Assembly: GCA_013141435.1 (NCBI GenBank)
Contig: JABFQZ010000012.1
Span: 1-64,000 of the forward strand
DNA from: Ferruginibacter sp.
Lineage (GTDB): Bacteria > Bacteroidota > Bacteroidia > Chitinophagales > Chitinophagaceae
Direction of reading: 5' to 3'
DNA length: 64,000 nt
Shown here: positions 53,228-59,356 of the stretch, one piece after another
Layout of the letters: each line of letters starts with the position of its first letter
How positions within the stretch are numbered: position 1 is the stretch's first letter
The notes under the pieces: generated by a model
Told to the model about the DNA's origin: nothing
The model's input: only the letters and a program-made list of their open reading frames with translations
Databases searched by the model: none
Translations under genes and position numbers: made by a program

Positions 53228-54793
53228 CTAATCAGTATATCTATGACCAGCATTTATCCAACTTGTAAGTGTAGCTTTTTCAGCAGCAGTAAATAATGCT
53301 TGAGGGCTTTTAGGCATTTTTACCCAACCAGCAGTATATAATACACAAGTATTATTAATTTGACTCCATTTATTTACTATACTACAATCAGCATCAAAAT
53401 TATAGCCAGCAGCGTTTGCACCTCCCATATGGCAACCACTACCACTACATCTATTAGTAATTAATTGCCTTACAGCAGCAAATGTTGGTCCTTGTGGAAC
53501 CACACCAACAGCCACCGATTTTGTATTGGTACACCCATTTACATCTTTTACACCTAATAAATAAGTACCAGCATTAAGATTTAAAAATGCATTACTTGTT
53601 TGATATACACCACCATTAATATTGTATGTAAAGCCAGTAGAACCAGTTGCTGTAACTGTAATACTGCCATTGTTGGTGGTTGTACCACAAGGTGTTGTTT
53701 GCACAATAGTTTGGTTTATTACAATATTTACATTTGTGCAGGGGTTTGAAGCAACTAGTGTAACAAGTTTAGTACCTAAGCAACTGTTAGAGTTTTTGGC
53801 AGTAATAGTGTAGTTGCCAATACCCAAGTTACTAAATAAACTAGCTGCTTGAAAAGTGCCATTATTTAAACTGTATGTAAAACCTGTACCACCAGTTGCA
53901 GATGCGGTAATACTACCATTTGCTGCACCAGTACTTGGGTTTACTTGTGTTGTAGTAACAATAACATTAACACCAGCACATGGGTTTGTAGCACCTAATG
54001 CAACCGTAGTAGAGCCAAGACAACCATTTGCATTTTTTGCAATAATGGTATAATTGCCAGCAGCTAAATTGCTAAATACGCCACTTGCCTGGTAAGTTCC
54101 ATTATTTAAACTATATGTAAAACTACTGCCACCAGTAGCCAATGCGGTAATACTACCATTTGAATTTCCTGTGGTAGGCTGCGTTTGTGTAGTTGTAACC
54201 AATACAGTTATACCTGCACATGGATCGGTAGAGCCTAGTGTAACAGAAGTAGCTCCTATGCAACCTAAAGCACTTTTTGCAGATATGCTGTAATTGCCTA
54301 CTGCAAGATTAGTAAAACTACCACTTGCCTGAAAAGTACCACCATTAAGGCTATAAGTAAAACCAGTGCCCCCAGTTGCTGTTGCAGTTATTGTACCATT
54401 AGATTGATTAATGGTTGGATCTACTTTTGTAGCTGTAACATTTATTACAACACCCTGACAAGGATCGTTAGTACCAATTGTAACTTCTACCGAATCTTTG
54501 CAACCTTGTGCATTTTTACCTACAATTTTATTTACAGAAAATGGAGCTAATCCAGTAAAAACACCACTACTAGTAAATGCAGCACCATTTATGCTATACA
54601 TAAAGCCCGAACCACCGGCTGCTGTAGCCGTAATAGTGCCATTAGATAAATTTTGTGTAGCATCAGTTTTTGTAGCAGTTACTTTAAAATTTACTAAATC
54701 GCAACTAATAGGAATATTATGTTGGCAGGAAATAGTAAATGCAATCAATAAAAATGCAATTACTATTTGTAATAGGGATTTTTTTTTGCACAT
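53228..54793 (-). CDS. Lipoprotein with five SprB-like repeats and a C-terminal heme-c-like domain
   Basis: 521 residues. A lipobox AFTISC (Cys23) predicts an outer-membrane lipoprotein. Five repeats of about 78 residues follow, each with a NGSITA-type start, a YSLNNGTFQ-type turn and a GNYTI-type end, joined by NPC/DPC linkers. The last 90 residues form a cytochrome-like domain with CSGSGCH (53429-53449; a C-x4-CH site), then KMPKSP and LTSWINAGH, the Met-Pro and Trp-Ile-x-x-Gly signature shared with the other cytochromes of this cluster. Last gene of the cluster, 144 bases after the LytTR gene. Heme attachment is inferred. Confidence 0.82.
   Translation of the reverse strand: MCKKKSLLQIVIAFLLIAFTISCQHNIPISCDLVNFKVTATKTDATQNLSNGTITATAAGGSGFMYSINGAAFTSSGVFTGLAPFSVNKIVGKNAQGCKDSVEVTIGTNDPCQGVVINVTATKVDPTINQSNGTITATATGGTGFTYSLNGGTFQASGSFTNLAVGNYSISAKSALGCIGATSVTLGSTDPCAGITVLVTTTQTQPTTGNSNGSITALATGGSSFTYSLNNGTYQASGVFSNLAAGNYTIIAKNANGCLGSTTVALGATNPCAGVNVIVTTTQVNPSTGAANGSITASATGGTGFTYSLNNGTFQAASLFSNLGIGNYTITAKNSNSCLGTKLVTLVASNPCTNVNIVINQTIVQTTPCGTTTNNGSITVTATGSTGFTYNINGGVYQTSNAFLNLNAGTYLLGVKDVNGCTNTKSVAVGVVPQGPTFAAVRQLITNRCSGSGCHMGGANAAGYNFDADCSIVNKWSQINNTCVLYTAGWVKMPKSPQALFTAAEKATLTSWINAGHRYTD
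53530..54700 (-). repeat. Five tandem SprB-like protein repeats
   Basis: About 234-bp units encode the repeats of the SprB-heme lipoprotein. Units 2-4 are the most alike, with shared stretches such as GFTYSLNNGT and Pro-Cys linkers. Similarity at DNA level makes the array prone to length change. Confidence 0.7.
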
Positions 54794-54937: not shown

Positions 54938-55675
54938 TTATTGCTGTATCCACTTTTTAAATGCTGGGGTTCTTTCAAAACTTGTATAAATTTTTGTTGT
55001 AGCAGATGGCTCTATACTCAAAGCAATCCTTTGTTTGCTTGCAGGTTGCATTTTTTTTATACAATTAATTTTTATTATATACTGTCTGTTAATTCTATAA
55101 AATAGAGTAGGGTCAAGCGTTTTTTCAAATTTATCTAACGAGTAATTGCTTGTATATTTTCTATTTTCAATAGTTACAATATATACTATTTTATTTTGTA
55201 TAAAAATGTAAGCAATTTCTTCGTCTTCTAAAACCTTTATTTGTGAACCAATGCGTATTAAATATTTTTTTTGAATTTGAGGTTCTAAAATATCCAATTT
55301 ATGGTTTTCATTTTTATTAATAATTAAAGCAGCAACTCTTTTAAATGCTTCTTGTAAATACGATGTTTTTATGGGTTTTAGTAAAAAATGAACAGCTCCC
55401 ATATTTATTGCTTGTATAGCAAAAGTTTTATTATTACTTAGTATTATTAATGGTATATTTTTTGTAAGATTAACAAAATTGTGCAAAAATAGTTTGCTAC
55501 AATTATCTAAAGAAGCTATAATTAAATCTGGTTTATAATTAAAAAGTAACCAATTAGGAAGCTGTTTTAATTTAGTGCAATTGGAAATAATATTATTATT
55601 TGGAAGAATAATATTTATTTCGCAAATTAATTTCTTTTTAATTTCTTCATTTTCTTCAAATATTAAAATTTGCAT
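54938..55675 (-). CDS. LytTR-family regulator with atypical receiver
   Basis: 245 residues from ATG 55675 (MQILIFEENE); 14 codons upstream in the frame are not part of the family. The receiver keeps Glu7/Glu8 and Lys in FLLKPI, but the phosphoacceptor position after strand 3 (PDLIIAS) is Ser55, with an Asp only two residues on. The LytTR DNA-binding domain is complete (EDEEIAYIFIQNKIVYIVT, FYRINRQYIIKINCI). No LytS-type kinase is adjacent. It lies between the Rieske and SprB-heme genes on their strand and may control the cluster without normal phosphorylation. Confidence 0.82.
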   Translation of the reverse strand: MQILIFEENEEIKKKLICEINIILPNNNIISNCTKLKQLPNWLLFNYKPDLIIASLDNCSKLFLHNFVNLTKNIPLIILSNNKTFAIQAINMGAVHFLLKPIKTSYLQEAFKRVAALIINKNENHKLDILEPQIQKKYLIRIGSQIKVLEDEEIAYIFIQNKIVYIVTIENRKYTSNYSLDKFEKTLDPTLFYRINRQYIIKINCIKKMQPASKQRIALSIEPSATTKIYTSFERTPAFKKWIQQ

Positions 55676-55780
55676 TTTTTTAAGTGGGGGATTATGCAAG
55701 TAAAAAAAAGTTACCACAAGGTTTTGTAATGCGATAACTTCTTTTAGGGGGATATCAGAAAATATTTATTGTTATATTTA

Positions 55781-56209
55781 TTAACCAACTACGGTAACTA
55801 TATTTCCAGAAATAGTTACTGCATATTGTTTTAAAGCACTTGTAGCTGGGCCATTGGTTACACCGCCAGTTGTATTAAATTTTGCACCATGGTTGGGGCA
55901 ATAAAATTGATTACTACTGCCTACAAACTGTACCGATGTACCAGCATGGGTACATGCTTGCGATACTGCAATTATTGTGCCAGATGTAGTTTTAGCTACA
56001 ATTACACCATTGGCATATACATATCCACCAGCAGTATTTAAAGCTGCATTGGCTGGTAATGAAAGATCTAAATTAAAATTTACATTAGAAGGTGCTATTA
56101 CATTTCCACCATCATCATCCGATTCTTTTTTGCAACCTCCTAAACATGTTGTTAGTAAAATTGCGCCAGCCGATAATCCTAAAGCCGATAAAAATTCTTT
56201 TCTATCCAT
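55781..56209 (-). CDS. Rieske 2Fe-2S lipoprotein
   Basis: 142 residues. A signal of the form RKEFL...LLTTC with Cys22/Cys26 (LGGC) marks a lipoprotein; CKKESDDD after the second Cys resembles the Lys-plus-acidic surface-export signals of Bacteroidota lipoproteins. The Rieske fold has Cys86-Thr-His88 and Cys104-Pro-Asn-His107, all four cluster ligands. It lacks a bc1-type anchor helix and no cytochrome b is nearby, so it is a stand-alone electron carrier. It is 25 bases after the DUF5777 gene. Confidence 0.9.
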   Translation of the reverse strand: MDRKEFLSALGLSAGAILLTTCLGGCKKESDDDGGNVIAPSNVNFNLDLSLPANAALNTAGGYVYANGVIVAKTTSGTIIAVSQACTHAGTSVQFVGSSNQFYCPNHGAKFNTTGGVTNGPATSALKQYAVTISGNIVTVVG

Positions 56210-56234
56210 TAGTATTAAATTTTAAAGGTTTCTA

Positions 56235-57131
56235 TTATTCTGCTTTTTTATTCTTTTTAATTTGAAAAACTCTTGATAAGTTAAAGCCCCATCTTATTTC
56301 GCCTTTACCCCATGTGTTAGTAGTTTCATTTAAAAATGCTCTTTCATTCATACCAGTAGAGTTAGAAAAATGAAGTTGAAATACATGTCCACCAGTTTCT
56401 ACATCAATACCAATTGCTAGTGGGTTATAATTTACATCGGCAGTTTTACCTGTTATCAAATAAAAATAATCCCAAGTAAGTGCCATACGTTTTGTAAATT
56501 TTAAACGACCACCCACACCTACAGAATATACATCGTTAGGATCGGTAGATAATGGTACAATATTGTTATGAACCATGGTAGGCGTTACTTGTAGTGTAAA
56601 TGCTTCACTAATTTTACTTCCTATTGCCATCTGAAAATAGTAAGCAATTTTTGAAGTAGTAAAATTTTGTATGGTTTGATTTGCAAATGGAGCTGAGTTT
56701 GCTGTAATACCAGCAATTGTTACTACACTTATAGGAAAACTATGATGACCTGTAGATTGTCTAATAGGAGCATATTTAATAAAAGCATCTAGCTCTTTTT
56801 TATAAGTACTTCTTCCAATACCTACCATCATATTATTTCTTAAGCCAAAATCAAATCCTAAACGCATACTTGCTTGATCTAATCCAAAAAAGTTTTTATA
56901 TCCTTGGTTAAGCATCCCAAACCTGTGCAGTATTCTTAAATCCATTGTACCTGGCGATAAAAATTCGATGGAATGACCATTAATAACCCTTGTGGATTTA
57001 AATGCGTTTTTTACAAATTCTTTTTTAGGTTTTTCATCGCCTAAAAGATCTAACAAATCTTGTGCTTGCATTTTAGTGCTAAACAAAATGCAACAAGTTG
57101 CTAGCATAATTTTTATAGGATTATTCTTCAT
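56235..57131 (-). CDS. DUF5777-family outer-membrane beta-barrel
   Basis: 298 residues: signal peptide (ending KMQAQ), a short acidic/basic segment (LLDLLGDEKPKKEFVKNAFKSTRV), then amphipathic strands to a C-terminal FNLSRVFQIKK. GTMDLRILHRFGMLNQGYKNFFGLD and FHLQ-type strands (VFQLHFSNSTGMNERAFL) are typical of DUF5777. Proteins of this family stand beside YceI and cytochrome genes in other Bacteroidota (from memory). Channel or scaffold function across the outer membrane is an inference. Confidence 0.83.
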   Translation of the reverse strand: MKNNPIKIMLATCCILFSTKMQAQDLLDLLGDEKPKKEFVKNAFKSTRVINGHSIEFLSPGTMDLRILHRFGMLNQGYKNFFGLDQASMRLGFDFGLRNNMMVGIGRSTYKKELDAFIKYAPIRQSTGHHSFPISVVTIAGITANSAPFANQTIQNFTTSKIAYYFQMAIGSKISEAFTLQVTPTMVHNNIVPLSTDPNDVYSVGVGGRLKFTKRMALTWDYFYLITGKTADVNYNPLAIGIDVETGGHVFQLHFSNSTGMNERAFLNETTNTWGKGEIRWGFNLSRVFQIKKNKKAE

Positions 57132-57163
57132 GAATTAGTTTTAGAATTTTAAATTATTTCTTT

Positions 57164-57724
57164 TTATTTTTTTAATGCCTCTAAAGCACATACTACATTT
57201 ACTTTAGCACTTGTAGCAACTTTGTCGGCTACAACTGTAGGTATTGCTACTTTATAGTCGGCAAGTAAGGCTACAAAACTTGCTTCGGCAGTAACTTTGC
57301 CAGCTTTTACGGTAATTTTTCCATCGGTTGTTGCATCATTTGTAACACCATGTATGGTTAATTTTCCTTTTACTGTAACATTATATGTACCATCTTTGGT
57401 ATAATTTACAGTAGCATTATTTGTAATAGCACCTTTAAATTCTGCTTTCGGAAATTTGGTACTTTCTATATAATTTTCATTAAAATGCTCTTGCATCAAT
57501 GCTCTTTCAAATTCAAAACCTTTGGTTTGCAATACAAACTGCATATCGCCAGTTTTAGAGTCTAAAACCATAGTAGTACTTTTATTTGTTCCTTTAATTA
57601 TCTCTGGCGATTTATTTGCAGTAGCATCAAAACTAACTTTACCTGTTTTGGTAAAATATTTTTCTTGTGCAAATGATATACTAACTAATGATGAAAATGC
57701 TAATATTAAGATTGATTTTTTCAT
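57164..57724 (-). CDS. YceI-family periplasmic lipocalin-like protein
   Basis: 186 residues: signal peptide (ending ISFAQ) and an eight-strand YceI barrel (KTGKVSFDATA, FPKAEFKGAI, VKGKLTIHGVT). YceI proteins bind long isoprenoids such as quinones in a hydrophobic pocket. Here, between an OB-fold protein and a barrel in a heme/Rieske cluster, a role as periplasmic quinone carrier is plausible but inferred. Spacing to the next gene is 32 bases. Confidence 0.9.
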   Translation of the reverse strand: MKKSILILAFSSLVSISFAQEKYFTKTGKVSFDATANKSPEIIKGTNKSTTMVLDSKTGDMQFVLQTKGFEFERALMQEHFNENYIESTKFPKAEFKGAITNNATVNYTKDGTYNVTVKGKLTIHGVTNDATTDGKITVKAGKVTAEASFVALLADYKVAIPTVVADKVATSAKVNVVCALEALKK

Positions 57725-57754
57725 GTGTTTTTATTTAATGGGTTTAAGATGTAA

Positions 57755-58216
57755 TTAATTTTTTGAAATACAAGTGTGATTTAAAATTATATCGGAGCCA
57801 AGGCCCAATTCGTCTTTATTAAAGCCTGTACAAATACCCTTTACTTGTATTGCTACGCCTTCTTTTAAAATTGATGCTTCTGAATTATGAACACTATCCA
57901 TACTACAACGTACACTTGTATTATTAGTAGTATCGCTAAAAACTAAAGTAAATGCTCCATTTTCGTCTTTATCTATAGTTTTAATAATACCTTTTATTTC
58001 AAGTGCTTTGTCGGTATATTTTTTTACCGAAGCAGTGTCGTTATTCACAAATTCAGTAATAATAGCATTACTACTAATAGAAAAATCGGGAGTTATACTT
58101 GCTATATCTTTTGCAGTACGATTGTATTCTTTATAAGCATAAATTGCAGATGATGCACCTATTACTAAAAGTGCTAGTAAAATATATTTTGTACTTTTTC
58201 TTTTTAAGAAATTCAT
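57755..58216 (-). CDS. Membrane-anchored OB-fold (tRNA_anti-like) protein
   Basis: 153 residues: Lys/Arg-rich N-terminus, one membrane helix (YILLALLVIGASSAIYAY), a linker and an OB fold (LEIKGIIKTIDKDENGAF and VAIQVKGICTGFN). The domain belongs to the tRNA_anti-like group, which outside tRNA synthetases occurs in envelope proteins of unknown role. Two Cys (in VRCSMDS and NHTCISK) could form a disulfide. It is 30 bases before the YceI gene and 17 after the monoheme gene. Confidence 0.82.
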   Translation of the reverse strand: MNFLKRKSTKYILLALLVIGASSAIYAYKEYNRTAKDIASITPDFSISSNAIITEFVNNDTASVKKYTDKALEIKGIIKTIDKDENGAFTLVFSDTTNNTSVRCSMDSVHNSEASILKEGVAIQVKGICTGFNKDELGLGSDIILNHTCISKN

Positions 58217-58233
58217 AGTTATTATTTTTTTAA

Positions 58234-58611
58234 TTAATTATTGGGGCTACCAGCATCTATCCATTTTTTTATGGCTGCAATACTACATACATCCATTTTT
58301 GCTACACCTTTGGGCATTGGCGAAAAACCAGAACTGTAATTAATTGTACCATATAGTTTTCCATTTACTGCAATTGCTTTATCGGCTGTGTAATTTCCCA
58401 TTATAATACCACCGCCAGCACCTGCTCCTGTATGGCAGCTATAACATTGTGTGGTTAAAAGCGGAACTACTTTTGCACTATATGAAACTGTTGCAGTAGT
58501 ATCGCAACCACCATTTGTAGAGCCGTACAGTAAATCGGCTTTATCGTAATAGCAAGAGTGCAAAGAGCCAACAATAAACACAATGGCAATTAAACTAAAT
58601 ACATTTTTCAT
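58234..58611 (-). CDS. Monoheme c-type cytochrome lipoprotein
   Basis: 125 residues. Lipobox GSLHSC (Cys20), then a cytochrome domain with CYSCH (58432-58446) as heme site and the Met-Pro ligand region SPMPKGVAKM ahead of IKKWIDAGS. The fold matches the small high-spin or class I-like cytochromes common in Bacteroidota envelopes. It should sit on a membrane facing the periplasm or outside. It is 28 bases after the diheme gene. Confidence 0.88.
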   Translation of the reverse strand: MKNVFSLIAIVFIVGSLHSCYYDKADLLYGSTNGGCDTTATVSYSAKVVPLLTTQCYSCHTGAGAGGGIIMGNYTADKAIAVNGKLYGTINYSSGFSPMPKGVAKMDVCSIAAIKKWIDAGSPNN

Positions 58612-58639
58612 AAATTGGATTTTTATTTTTGGTTTATAA

Positions 58640-59356
58640 TTAGTTGTTTAATGCACCAGCATCTATCCATTTTTTAATTTGTGTAATTTGACAAGCAGGC
58701 ATTTTATTTCCTCCTTTTGGCATTGCCGAAAAACCAGCAGTCCAATTTATTGTACCCCACAATCTGCCACTTGTAACAGATGCTTTTACAGTAGTGTAAG
58801 TAGACAAATCAATACCACCACCAAGCGATGCAGGGTTGTGACAACCTGTACAATTATTTTGCATTAGTGGTTGTATTGCAGTAGCATATTTAAAGCTTGT
58901 TGTATCACATGCATCGCAACCATTATTTTTTGCACCTTGGTTTATCCATTTTTGTACCAAAGCTATTTGCGAAGCTGTAAATGCAGGTAGTGGAGGTAAA
59001 GGCATTCTTTCTGAGCCTGTTTTTACCAATACTTTGTATAATTTACTATTGCCAGCATTGCCTGCACTTACATAGTTTCTTATGGTAGCATAGTTTACAA
59101 GCGTAACACCATCTGCATGCGATGCTGCACTATGGCAACCAGTTGTAGCACAACCAGAAATTATTAATGGTAAAATACTATTGGCAAAATATACGCTATC
59201 GGTACTACAAGTTATACCAGTAGTGCCAGGTATTGGTGTTGTGCCACCAGCATTTCCTCCAGGGTTTGCAATAGAAAAAGCAGTTTCATGCTTGCACGAA
59301 ATAAAAATTGCTACACTTGCAAAAAGTACTAAGGAACTGGAAATTATTTTTTTCAT
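58640..59356 (-). CDS. Diheme c-type cytochrome lipoprotein
   Basis: 238 residues, first gene of the cluster. Lipobox FISC (Cys21), Gly/Pro linker, then two similar heme domains: the first with CATTGCH (59132-59152, C-x4-CH) and RMPLPP...VQKWINQGA, the second with CTGCH (58838-58852) and AMPKGGNKM...IKKWIDAGA. The halves look like an internal duplication; the second is close to the monoheme neighbour. No catalytic domain is visible, so it is an electron-transfer protein. The 290 bases upstream should hold the operon promoter but show no exact TAnnTTTG box by eye. Confidence 0.88.
   Translation of the reverse strand: MKKIISSSLVLFASVAIFISCKHETAFSIANPGGNAGGTTPIPGTTGITCSTDSVYFANSILPLIISGCATTGCHSAASHADGVTLVNYATIRNYVSAGNAGNSKLYKVLVKTGSERMPLPPLPAFTASQIALVQKWINQGAKNNGCDACDTTSFKYATAIQPLMQNNCTGCHNPASLGGGIDLSTYTTVKASVTSGRLWGTINWTAGFSAMPKGGNKMPACQITQIKKWIDAGALNN

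Follow-up and report, generated by a model that had tools for sequence, protein, structure and literature searches.

Six genes on the minus strand (positions 55781-59356) of a 64,000-nucleotide stretch of Ferruginibacter sp. DNA (assembly GCA_013141435.1, contig JABFQZ010000012.1, positions 1 to 64,000; hereafter "the window") belong to a gene cassette that is organized around a DUF5777 barrel and whose parts recur together in Bacteroidota. We propose that this cassette is a block-inherited, outer-membrane electron-handling unit, in which a YceI lipocalin carries an isoprenoid, probably a quinone, and in which this compound exchanges electrons with the hemes of lipid-anchored proteins. We assign this reading a probability of roughly 0.4.

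The cassette is real, widespread and, as far as literature searches reach, undescribed. An initial annotation of the window had known of no description of this set as a working unit; our literature searches, which did not cover every wording, likewise found none, nor did they find a paper carrying the name DUF5777. If the proposal is true, many Bacteroidota have an unrecognized outer-membrane redox system. In addition, YceI lipocalins, whose role is described as unclear in PMC9113575, could have that role tested with a heme partner that is not b561.

Results and Discussion

Composition of the cassette

The initial annotation had described six minus-strand genes separated by 17-32 bases. The list of open reading frames (ORFs) of the window contains all six, with intergenic gaps, in order from CytA to the Rieske gene, of 28, 17, 30, 32 and 25 bases. 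CytA (58640..59356) is a lipoprotein with two cytochrome c domains, one carrying a CX4CH and the other a CXXCH motif. PSCyt1 (PF07635, E 9.5e-07) is its sole Pfam family above cut-off, and a search of PDB sequences with CytA gave no match. CytB (58234..58611) is a monoheme lipoprotein with a CXXCH motif and the residues MP in its C-terminal half; it reaches no Pfam cut-off, its CBB3 match being sub-threshold. The two proteins account for the two heme lipoproteins and three heme sites recognized earlier.

The remaining four products all score above their own Pfam cut-offs, in agreement with the earlier assignments. They are an N-terminally anchored OB fold of the tRNA_anti-like type (57755..58216; PF12869, E 1.2e-18), a YceI lipocalin with an apparent signal peptide, judged by eye (57164..57724; PF04264, E 2.2e-12, 48 bits against a cut-off of 23.7), the DUF5777 outer-membrane barrel (56235..57131; PF19089, E 2e-87) and a Rieske lipoprotein (55781..56209; PF00355, E 1.2e-12). 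The YceI protein also matched a YceI structure in PDB, 5ixg (E 2.6e-4). For DUF5777, the score is 293 bits against a cut-off of 23.1, and positions 1-247 of the 247 in the family model are aligned.

Recurrence of the cassette across genomes

Searches detected DUF5777 in 115 of 296 phylum genomes, in 87 of 98 genomes of the family and in none of 14 control genomes. Neighborhoods were collected for 183 loci: the window, two paralogues from its own genome, 80 named loci (the best 80 of 582) and 100 from the phylum and family genomes. Of these 100, 60 are a selection of the places found in the phylum, and 40 are the family places of best similarity; 20 family places of weak similarity were added later to find a second cassette type, type B, which not all of them proved to be. 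One locus was dropped for want of a DUF5777 ORF, and four near-duplicates and 29 loci with short flanks were left out of the count of same-strand runs, giving 149 usable, nonredundant loci. A second count, of neighbors within 3 kb on both strands, covers 169 loci, and omits three duplicates of 172 as well as genes with less than 3 kb on a side.

Among the 149 same-strand runs, 126 include YceI, 121 a cytochrome, 80 OB and nine Rieske; six runs have none of these. For the 57 loci of the phylum part, the corresponding numbers are 46, 40, nine and six. Cytochromes make up 221, and YceI proteins 168, of the 1142 ORFs in DUF5777 runs, far more than in the background: among 1037 ORFs more than 3.5 kb away, there were seven YceI and two Rieske proteins, and no cytochrome or OB. 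Within 3 kb of DUF5777, a heme-motif gene occurs at 152 of the 169 loci, a heme or Rieske gene at 157, YceI at 130, OB at 81 and Rieske at nine, and among 633 ORFs more than 6 kb away (counted per ORF, not per locus), seven have a heme motif and ten are YceI.

The profiles behind this census were iterated from the same neighborhoods, and are thus biased toward finding partners. A reverse test with a Pfam model provides an independent check. In the 98 family genomes, 66 of 115 PF12869 places (one of them below the family cut-off) start within 4.5 kb of one of 135 DUF5777 places (one second fragment dropped), against 0.34 expected if the mean genome is assumed to be 4.2 Mb.

Relatives most often show the order cyt-cyt-OB-YceI-DUF5777, and the phylum-wide core is cyt-YceI-DUF5777. 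Judged from gene content, the first of these is the conserved unit and the second its wider core; Rieske is not included, because it lies near only 9 of the 169 DUF5777 genes. The joint occurrence that the initial annotation had asked about therefore holds for the cytochromes, YceI, OB and DUF5777, which are widely found together, but not for a fixed set of six.

Divergence of the cassette as a block

Three orthologous cassettes (L146, L066 and L072) were compared with that of the window. Identities are 61-66% for DUF5777, 58-63% for YceI, 61-65% for CytA and 58-62% for CytB. To the paralogue in the window's own genome (L004), which has no OB, the same proteins are 47, 43, 46 and 42% identical. 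Because the parts stand at 58-66% to three orthologous cassettes versus 42-47% to their own paralogue, they have mostly diverged together, which supports the initial annotation. Pairwise distances over 119 loci are correlated between DUF5777 and YceI (r = 0.82) and between DUF5777 and the cytochrome (0.65), with 0 of 999 shuffles as high, a correlation that comes partly from shared host ancestry. When the presence of OB is labeled on a FastTree phylogeny, in which many forks are weak, 20 changes are needed.

The DUF5777 barrel

An AlphaFold2 model of DUF5777 (41 sequences; mean predicted local distance difference test (pLDDT) 86.5, predicted template modeling score (pTM) 0.78) has 12 strands, which accords with the barrel named in the initial annotation. 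The closest solved folds are effectively tied: KdgM (Z 17.7), FapF (17.5) and NanC (17.3), at 9-12% identity. KdgM superposes with a root mean square deviation of 2.0 over 167 residues at 9% identity, which indicates likeness of fold only, not sequence membership. Conserved residues assigned to the inward face are mainly charged (D64, R66, R70, R90, D94, D115, K119, R209, K211, D243 and E245), where inward and outward faces were set by alternation with hydrophobic residues and not by coordinates. Because these lumen residues are charged, passage of a lipid or quinone fits the barrel poorly. On this evidence, a polar channel for small solutes suits the barrel better than does a conduit of hemes or a pore for lipids.

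The initial annotation had electrons passing from the lipoproteins past this barrel. Such a path is doubtful. MtrAB-type barrels have 26 strands and Cyc2 has 16 (PMC8406198), as against the 12 predicted here with small channels such as KdgM and NanC as best matches, and 21 motifs are predicted for a Pcc porin. We rejected an MtrB-like conduit on the predicted strand number. No MtrB-type chain is among the structural matches listed, which by itself excludes nothing. By eye, the DUF5777 sequence has no CXXCH motif. Separately, L056 and L059 are single ORFs of about 600 amino acids, each with two tandem DUF5777 domains.

The resemblance to solute porins raises the question of whether the cassette instead serves uptake or efflux of a small acidic or lipid-like compound, the cytochromes merely supplying periplasmic oxidizing power, for example for the first oxidation of an import. 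KdgM and NanC among the best structural matches, the conserved charged lumen and the varied regulators encoded nearby, as in nutrient systems, would all suit such a role. The regulators are LytTR-type at 21 census loci, extracytoplasmic function (ECF) sigma factors at 26 and AraC at 13, with one member of each cluster typed by Pfam. However, none of 15 typed neighbor clusters is a cassette-specific catabolic enzyme or inner-membrane transporter, and the most constant partner of the barrel is heme proteins. We consider this explanation rather improbable.

Cytochromes, OB fold and YceI

The heme sites are conserved in homologues, as the earlier proposal needed. Exactly one heme motif is present in 145 of 147 profile-found short cytochromes, 146 of which have MP in the second half, and both motifs are present in 63 of 74 long ones; these counts leave out 13 further cytochrome-profile hits of other lengths. 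The diheme cytochrome is enlarged to four heme motifs in L079:4252-5592 and L080:2457-3842, and to three in L112:1364-2332.

The OB protein is modeled as an N-terminal helix (residues 4-31) followed by an OB fold (pLDDT 93.6), consistent with the anchored OB fold described earlier; its closest PDB match is 3f1z. Alignment reveals two near-invariant cysteines and, among 40 aligned OB proteins, no conserved histidine. The residues NHTC at the C-terminus of the window protein had suggested a heme chaperone resembling CcmE, a candidate that we rejected, as this histidine is not conserved. The anchor and the two cysteines are also what would speak for a cassette devoted to assembly, in which OB and YceI help to lipidate, sort or load outer-membrane heme proteins. 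Given the missing counterpart of the histidine of CcmE and the failure to detect OB within 3 kb at 88 of the 169 loci, we hold this to be very improbable.

That the window YceI protein holds a quinone is a conjecture at the level of the family. Two YceI-type proteins, BcnA of Burkholderia and GNA1030 of Neisseria, make it plausible. BcnA and a b561 partner limit lipid peroxidation, and GNA1030 binds ubiquinone-8 (PMC9113575).

YceI genes number five in the window's own genome, and three of these lie in its two type-A cassettes, the kind seen in the window. At L267:5835-7112, a canonical YceI gene directly follows a gene for a 242-amino-acid protein that is barrel-like by eye and has no Pfam match; this is possibly another pairing of YceI with a barrel.

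The Rieske protein is an occasional extra

All four ligands of the Rieske center reported earlier are present as a CXH and a CXXH pair (C86, H88, C104 and H107), and are invariant in 13 aligned sequences, two of them from outside the cassettes. The cysteine pair that makes a disulfide in bc1/b6f Rieske proteins is absent from the window protein (CTHAGT, CPNHG), and is present in its relatives L227, L228 and L232. Rieske centers without this disulfide usually have a low potential.

The N-terminus has RKEFL (RK.FL), which resembles a twin-arginine translocation (Tat) signal, and C-KKESDDD follows the lipobox. A surface location of the Rieske protein is possible, because this stretch resembles C-KKEVEEE, the surface-export signal of MucG (PMC5080379). 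Relatives keep the acidic stretch weakly or not at all, and by eye CytA and CytB have no such signal.

In the phylum sample, a cytochrome is present in one of six runs with Rieske versus 39 of 51 without it (Fisher p = 0.007, uncorrected for kinship), as if Rieske and cytochrome served there as alternative carriers. Over all 149 runs, however, four of the nine with Rieske, including that of the window, also hold a cytochrome, and Rieske is therefore no simple replacement. On the weakly resolved tree mentioned above, the nine Rieske loci need five changes; Rieske has thus been gained or lost several times. It is an occasional extra (9 of 169 loci), not a fixed member.

A second cassette type

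The third DUF5777 gene of the window's own genome lies in a type-B cassette (L005:7671-14387, contig C16). Its genes encode, in order, an ethylbenzene-dehydrogenase-type (EB_dh) heme protein, a cytochrome, DUF5777, a cytochrome c, a ferredoxin-like 4Fe-4S protein, NrfD and a 310-amino-acid protein with no Pfam match. This arrangement, or a divergent form of it, recurs in other genomes of the family. At the own-genome paralogue of type A (L004:7376-14274), DUF5777 is flanked on both sides by YceI, and the next genes encode a Reg_prop/Y_Y_Y histidine kinase and a LytTR-like regulator. All three own-genome DUF5777 loci have a heme gene near the barrel. The genome also has two NrfD genes and two Rieske genes.

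NrfD proteins oxidize or reduce quinones. A 4Fe-4S/NrfD module standing in for YceI therefore suggests a link to quinones in both types, and what the types have in common would be a part that faces the quinone, together with a small cytochrome and the barrel. NrfD up to 6 kb away and YceI up to 3 kb away coincide at only one of the 169 loci, L246, which has two adjacent cassettes. On the same tree, with its many weak forks, two changes separate the YceI and NrfD states. The two cassette types, together with the Rieske loci that have no cytochrome, constitute natural experiments on interchangeable parts.

A broader formulation would make DUF5777 the mark of small electron ports throughout the phylum. 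Monoheme or diheme lipoproteins, at times joined or replaced by Rieske, would dock at the 12-strand barrel and link the quinone pool to the surface, with either 4Fe-4S/NrfD or a quinone-carrying YceI on the quinone side. We regard this formulation as unlikely.

Neighboring genes and possible regulation

Upstream of the cassette, an S41 peptidase gene lies 290 bases from CytA, the first cassette gene. Two downstream genes were missed by the initial annotation. A LytTR-type regulator (54938..55717, minus strand; PF04397, E 2.8e-17), in which the receiver domain is weak (PF00072 below cut-off), is encoded 63 bases after the Rieske gene. It is possibly the regulator of the cassette; a cluster of such regulators is the one counted above at 21 loci. 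By eye, the usual phosphate-accepting aspartate seems to be missing, and no kinase gene adjoins it, unlike at L004. The second gene, a further 144 bases downstream, encodes an SprB-repeat lipoprotein (53228..54793, minus strand; PF13573) whose C-terminal CX4CH cytochrome domain provides a fourth heme motif. SprB repeats are of the surface-adhesin type.

This SprB-repeat cluster is represented at ten loci including the window, two of which (L070 and L148) are from one genome. All ten genes are on the DUF5777 strand; seven start less than 200 bases after DUF5777, and two lie before it. Pattern matching finds CXXCH or CX4CH in nine of the ten. The SprB-repeat heme lipoprotein is probably a downstream cassette member, and the unit probably reaches further downstream than six genes. 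A 445-amino-acid protein with a C-terminal domain resembling an outer-membrane protein barrel is encoded near cassettes at 19 census loci.

Scans for promoters and terminators, with a consensus that is not that of Bacteroidota, yielded no excess over shuffled sequences. Under this consensus, the best promoter-like site is at 59523-59496, and none of three terminator-like sites lies between the six genes.

Another explanation is that the cassette is a small porin-cytochrome module resembling a split Cyc2. An anchored cytochrome would plug or dock at the barrel, and exchange electrons with a small solute entering from outside, such as a metal ion, a quinone or another organic compound. A heme gene near the barrel at 152 of 169 loci and at all three own-genome loci is as expected, as is the SprB-repeat heme lipoprotein that accompanies the barrel in close relatives; the NrfD branch could deliver quinol electrons, and the Rieske stretch resembling the MucG signal would fit a surface site. 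Cyc2 itself shows that iron can be oxidized by one heme at a small barrel (PMC8406198). But the predicted barrel has 12 strands rather than 16 and no heme motif in its protein, and its top structural matches are KdgM, FapF and NanC. Moreover, among the window lipoproteins only Rieske has an export-like signal (by eye), one that is weak or absent in relatives, and YceI and OB are poorly explained. We view this as a possible explanation, though a somewhat unlikely one.

A proposed mechanism and the observations against it

In the electron-handling unit that we favor, lipid anchors would hold the cytochromes near the barrel at the outer membrane. YceI would ferry an isoprenoid between the membranes, most likely the quinone of the cell, and this quinone would exchange electrons with the hemes or with the Rieske cluster. 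Through this exchange, we infer, the outer membrane is connected with the pool of periplasmic cytochromes and with the oxidase. The barrel would be a small polar channel at which carriers dock and which lets through a small, charged solute or the product of that solute, not a heme-filled conduit.

The likeliest use, and the weakest step of the proposal, would be to maintain a defined redox state of quinones or lipids in the outer membrane. One example is the quenching of lipid peroxyl radicals, a function put forward for BcnA, together with cytochrome b561, in Burkholderia. The organism of the window has no match to b561 (PF01292) in its genome at E 0.001, and may employ c-type cytochromes instead. 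The genome also has no match to cytochrome b (PF00033) at the same threshold, which upholds the earlier statement that the set is not a bc1 complex.

Several observations weigh against this reading. Some concern the block: OB diverges faster (38-44% identity to L146, L066 and L072), and in cassette L106 DUF5777 and YceI are 57% and 52% identical to those of the window, but the cytochromes only 37-40%. Others concern composition. No heme or Rieske neighbor is found for 12 of the 169 DUF5777 genes, and neither YceI nor NrfD at 24. Type-B loci were sought on purpose, so the count of NrfD and YceI together at one locus and its Fisher value are not a clean test of exclusivity. The window's own genome has an OB-YceI two-gene pair without barrel or cytochrome (L266:6934-7944), and the sole genome of the same genus in the sample (G091) lacks DUF5777. 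The remaining points concern function. The charged lumen is ill suited to a lipid or quinone, and a PF01292 match is present in six of 20 relatives. The link to an oxidase is weak, with COX1 present in 285 of the 296 phylum genomes, although none of the 11 without it is, by eye, among the 115 with DUF5777.

Comparison with known systems

Among systems whose logic has been worked out, the closest is BcnA-LcoA in Burkholderia and other Proteobacteria. There too, a lipocalin gene lies beside a heme-protein gene, the site is the envelope, and a relative binds ubiquinone-8. The cassette differs in having no b561 and in having c-type cytochrome lipoproteins or Rieske, an outer-membrane barrel and an OB fold.

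MtrCAB, PioAB and Pcc likewise encode an outer-membrane barrel alongside c-type cytochromes. Here, however, 12 strands are predicted (26 in MtrCAB), YceI is present, and the proteins carry one and two heme motifs, with up to four in relatives of the long cytochrome, rather than the eight or more of multiheme cytochromes. Cyc2 shares one heme domain tied to a small barrel, but in the cassette the two are unfused, the strands number 12 instead of 16, and there are two cytochromes as well as YceI and OB. With the small porins KdgM and NanC, the likeness is the predicted 12-strand barrel fold.

Quinol modules of the NrfCD/PsrBC type (the name NrfC assigned by eye) are represented by the type-B loci, which share the barrel family and related cytochromes (L005) with the type-A cassette of the window; in type A, YceI is present, and neither the 4Fe-4S/NrfD pair nor the EB_dh heme protein occurs. 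Finally, the Rieske proteins of bc1/b6f complexes and of arsenite oxidase have the same four-ligand domain and Tat-like start, and differ in their setting, as the cassette has no cytochrome b or molybdenum subunit and the window Rieske protein has no disulfide cysteines.

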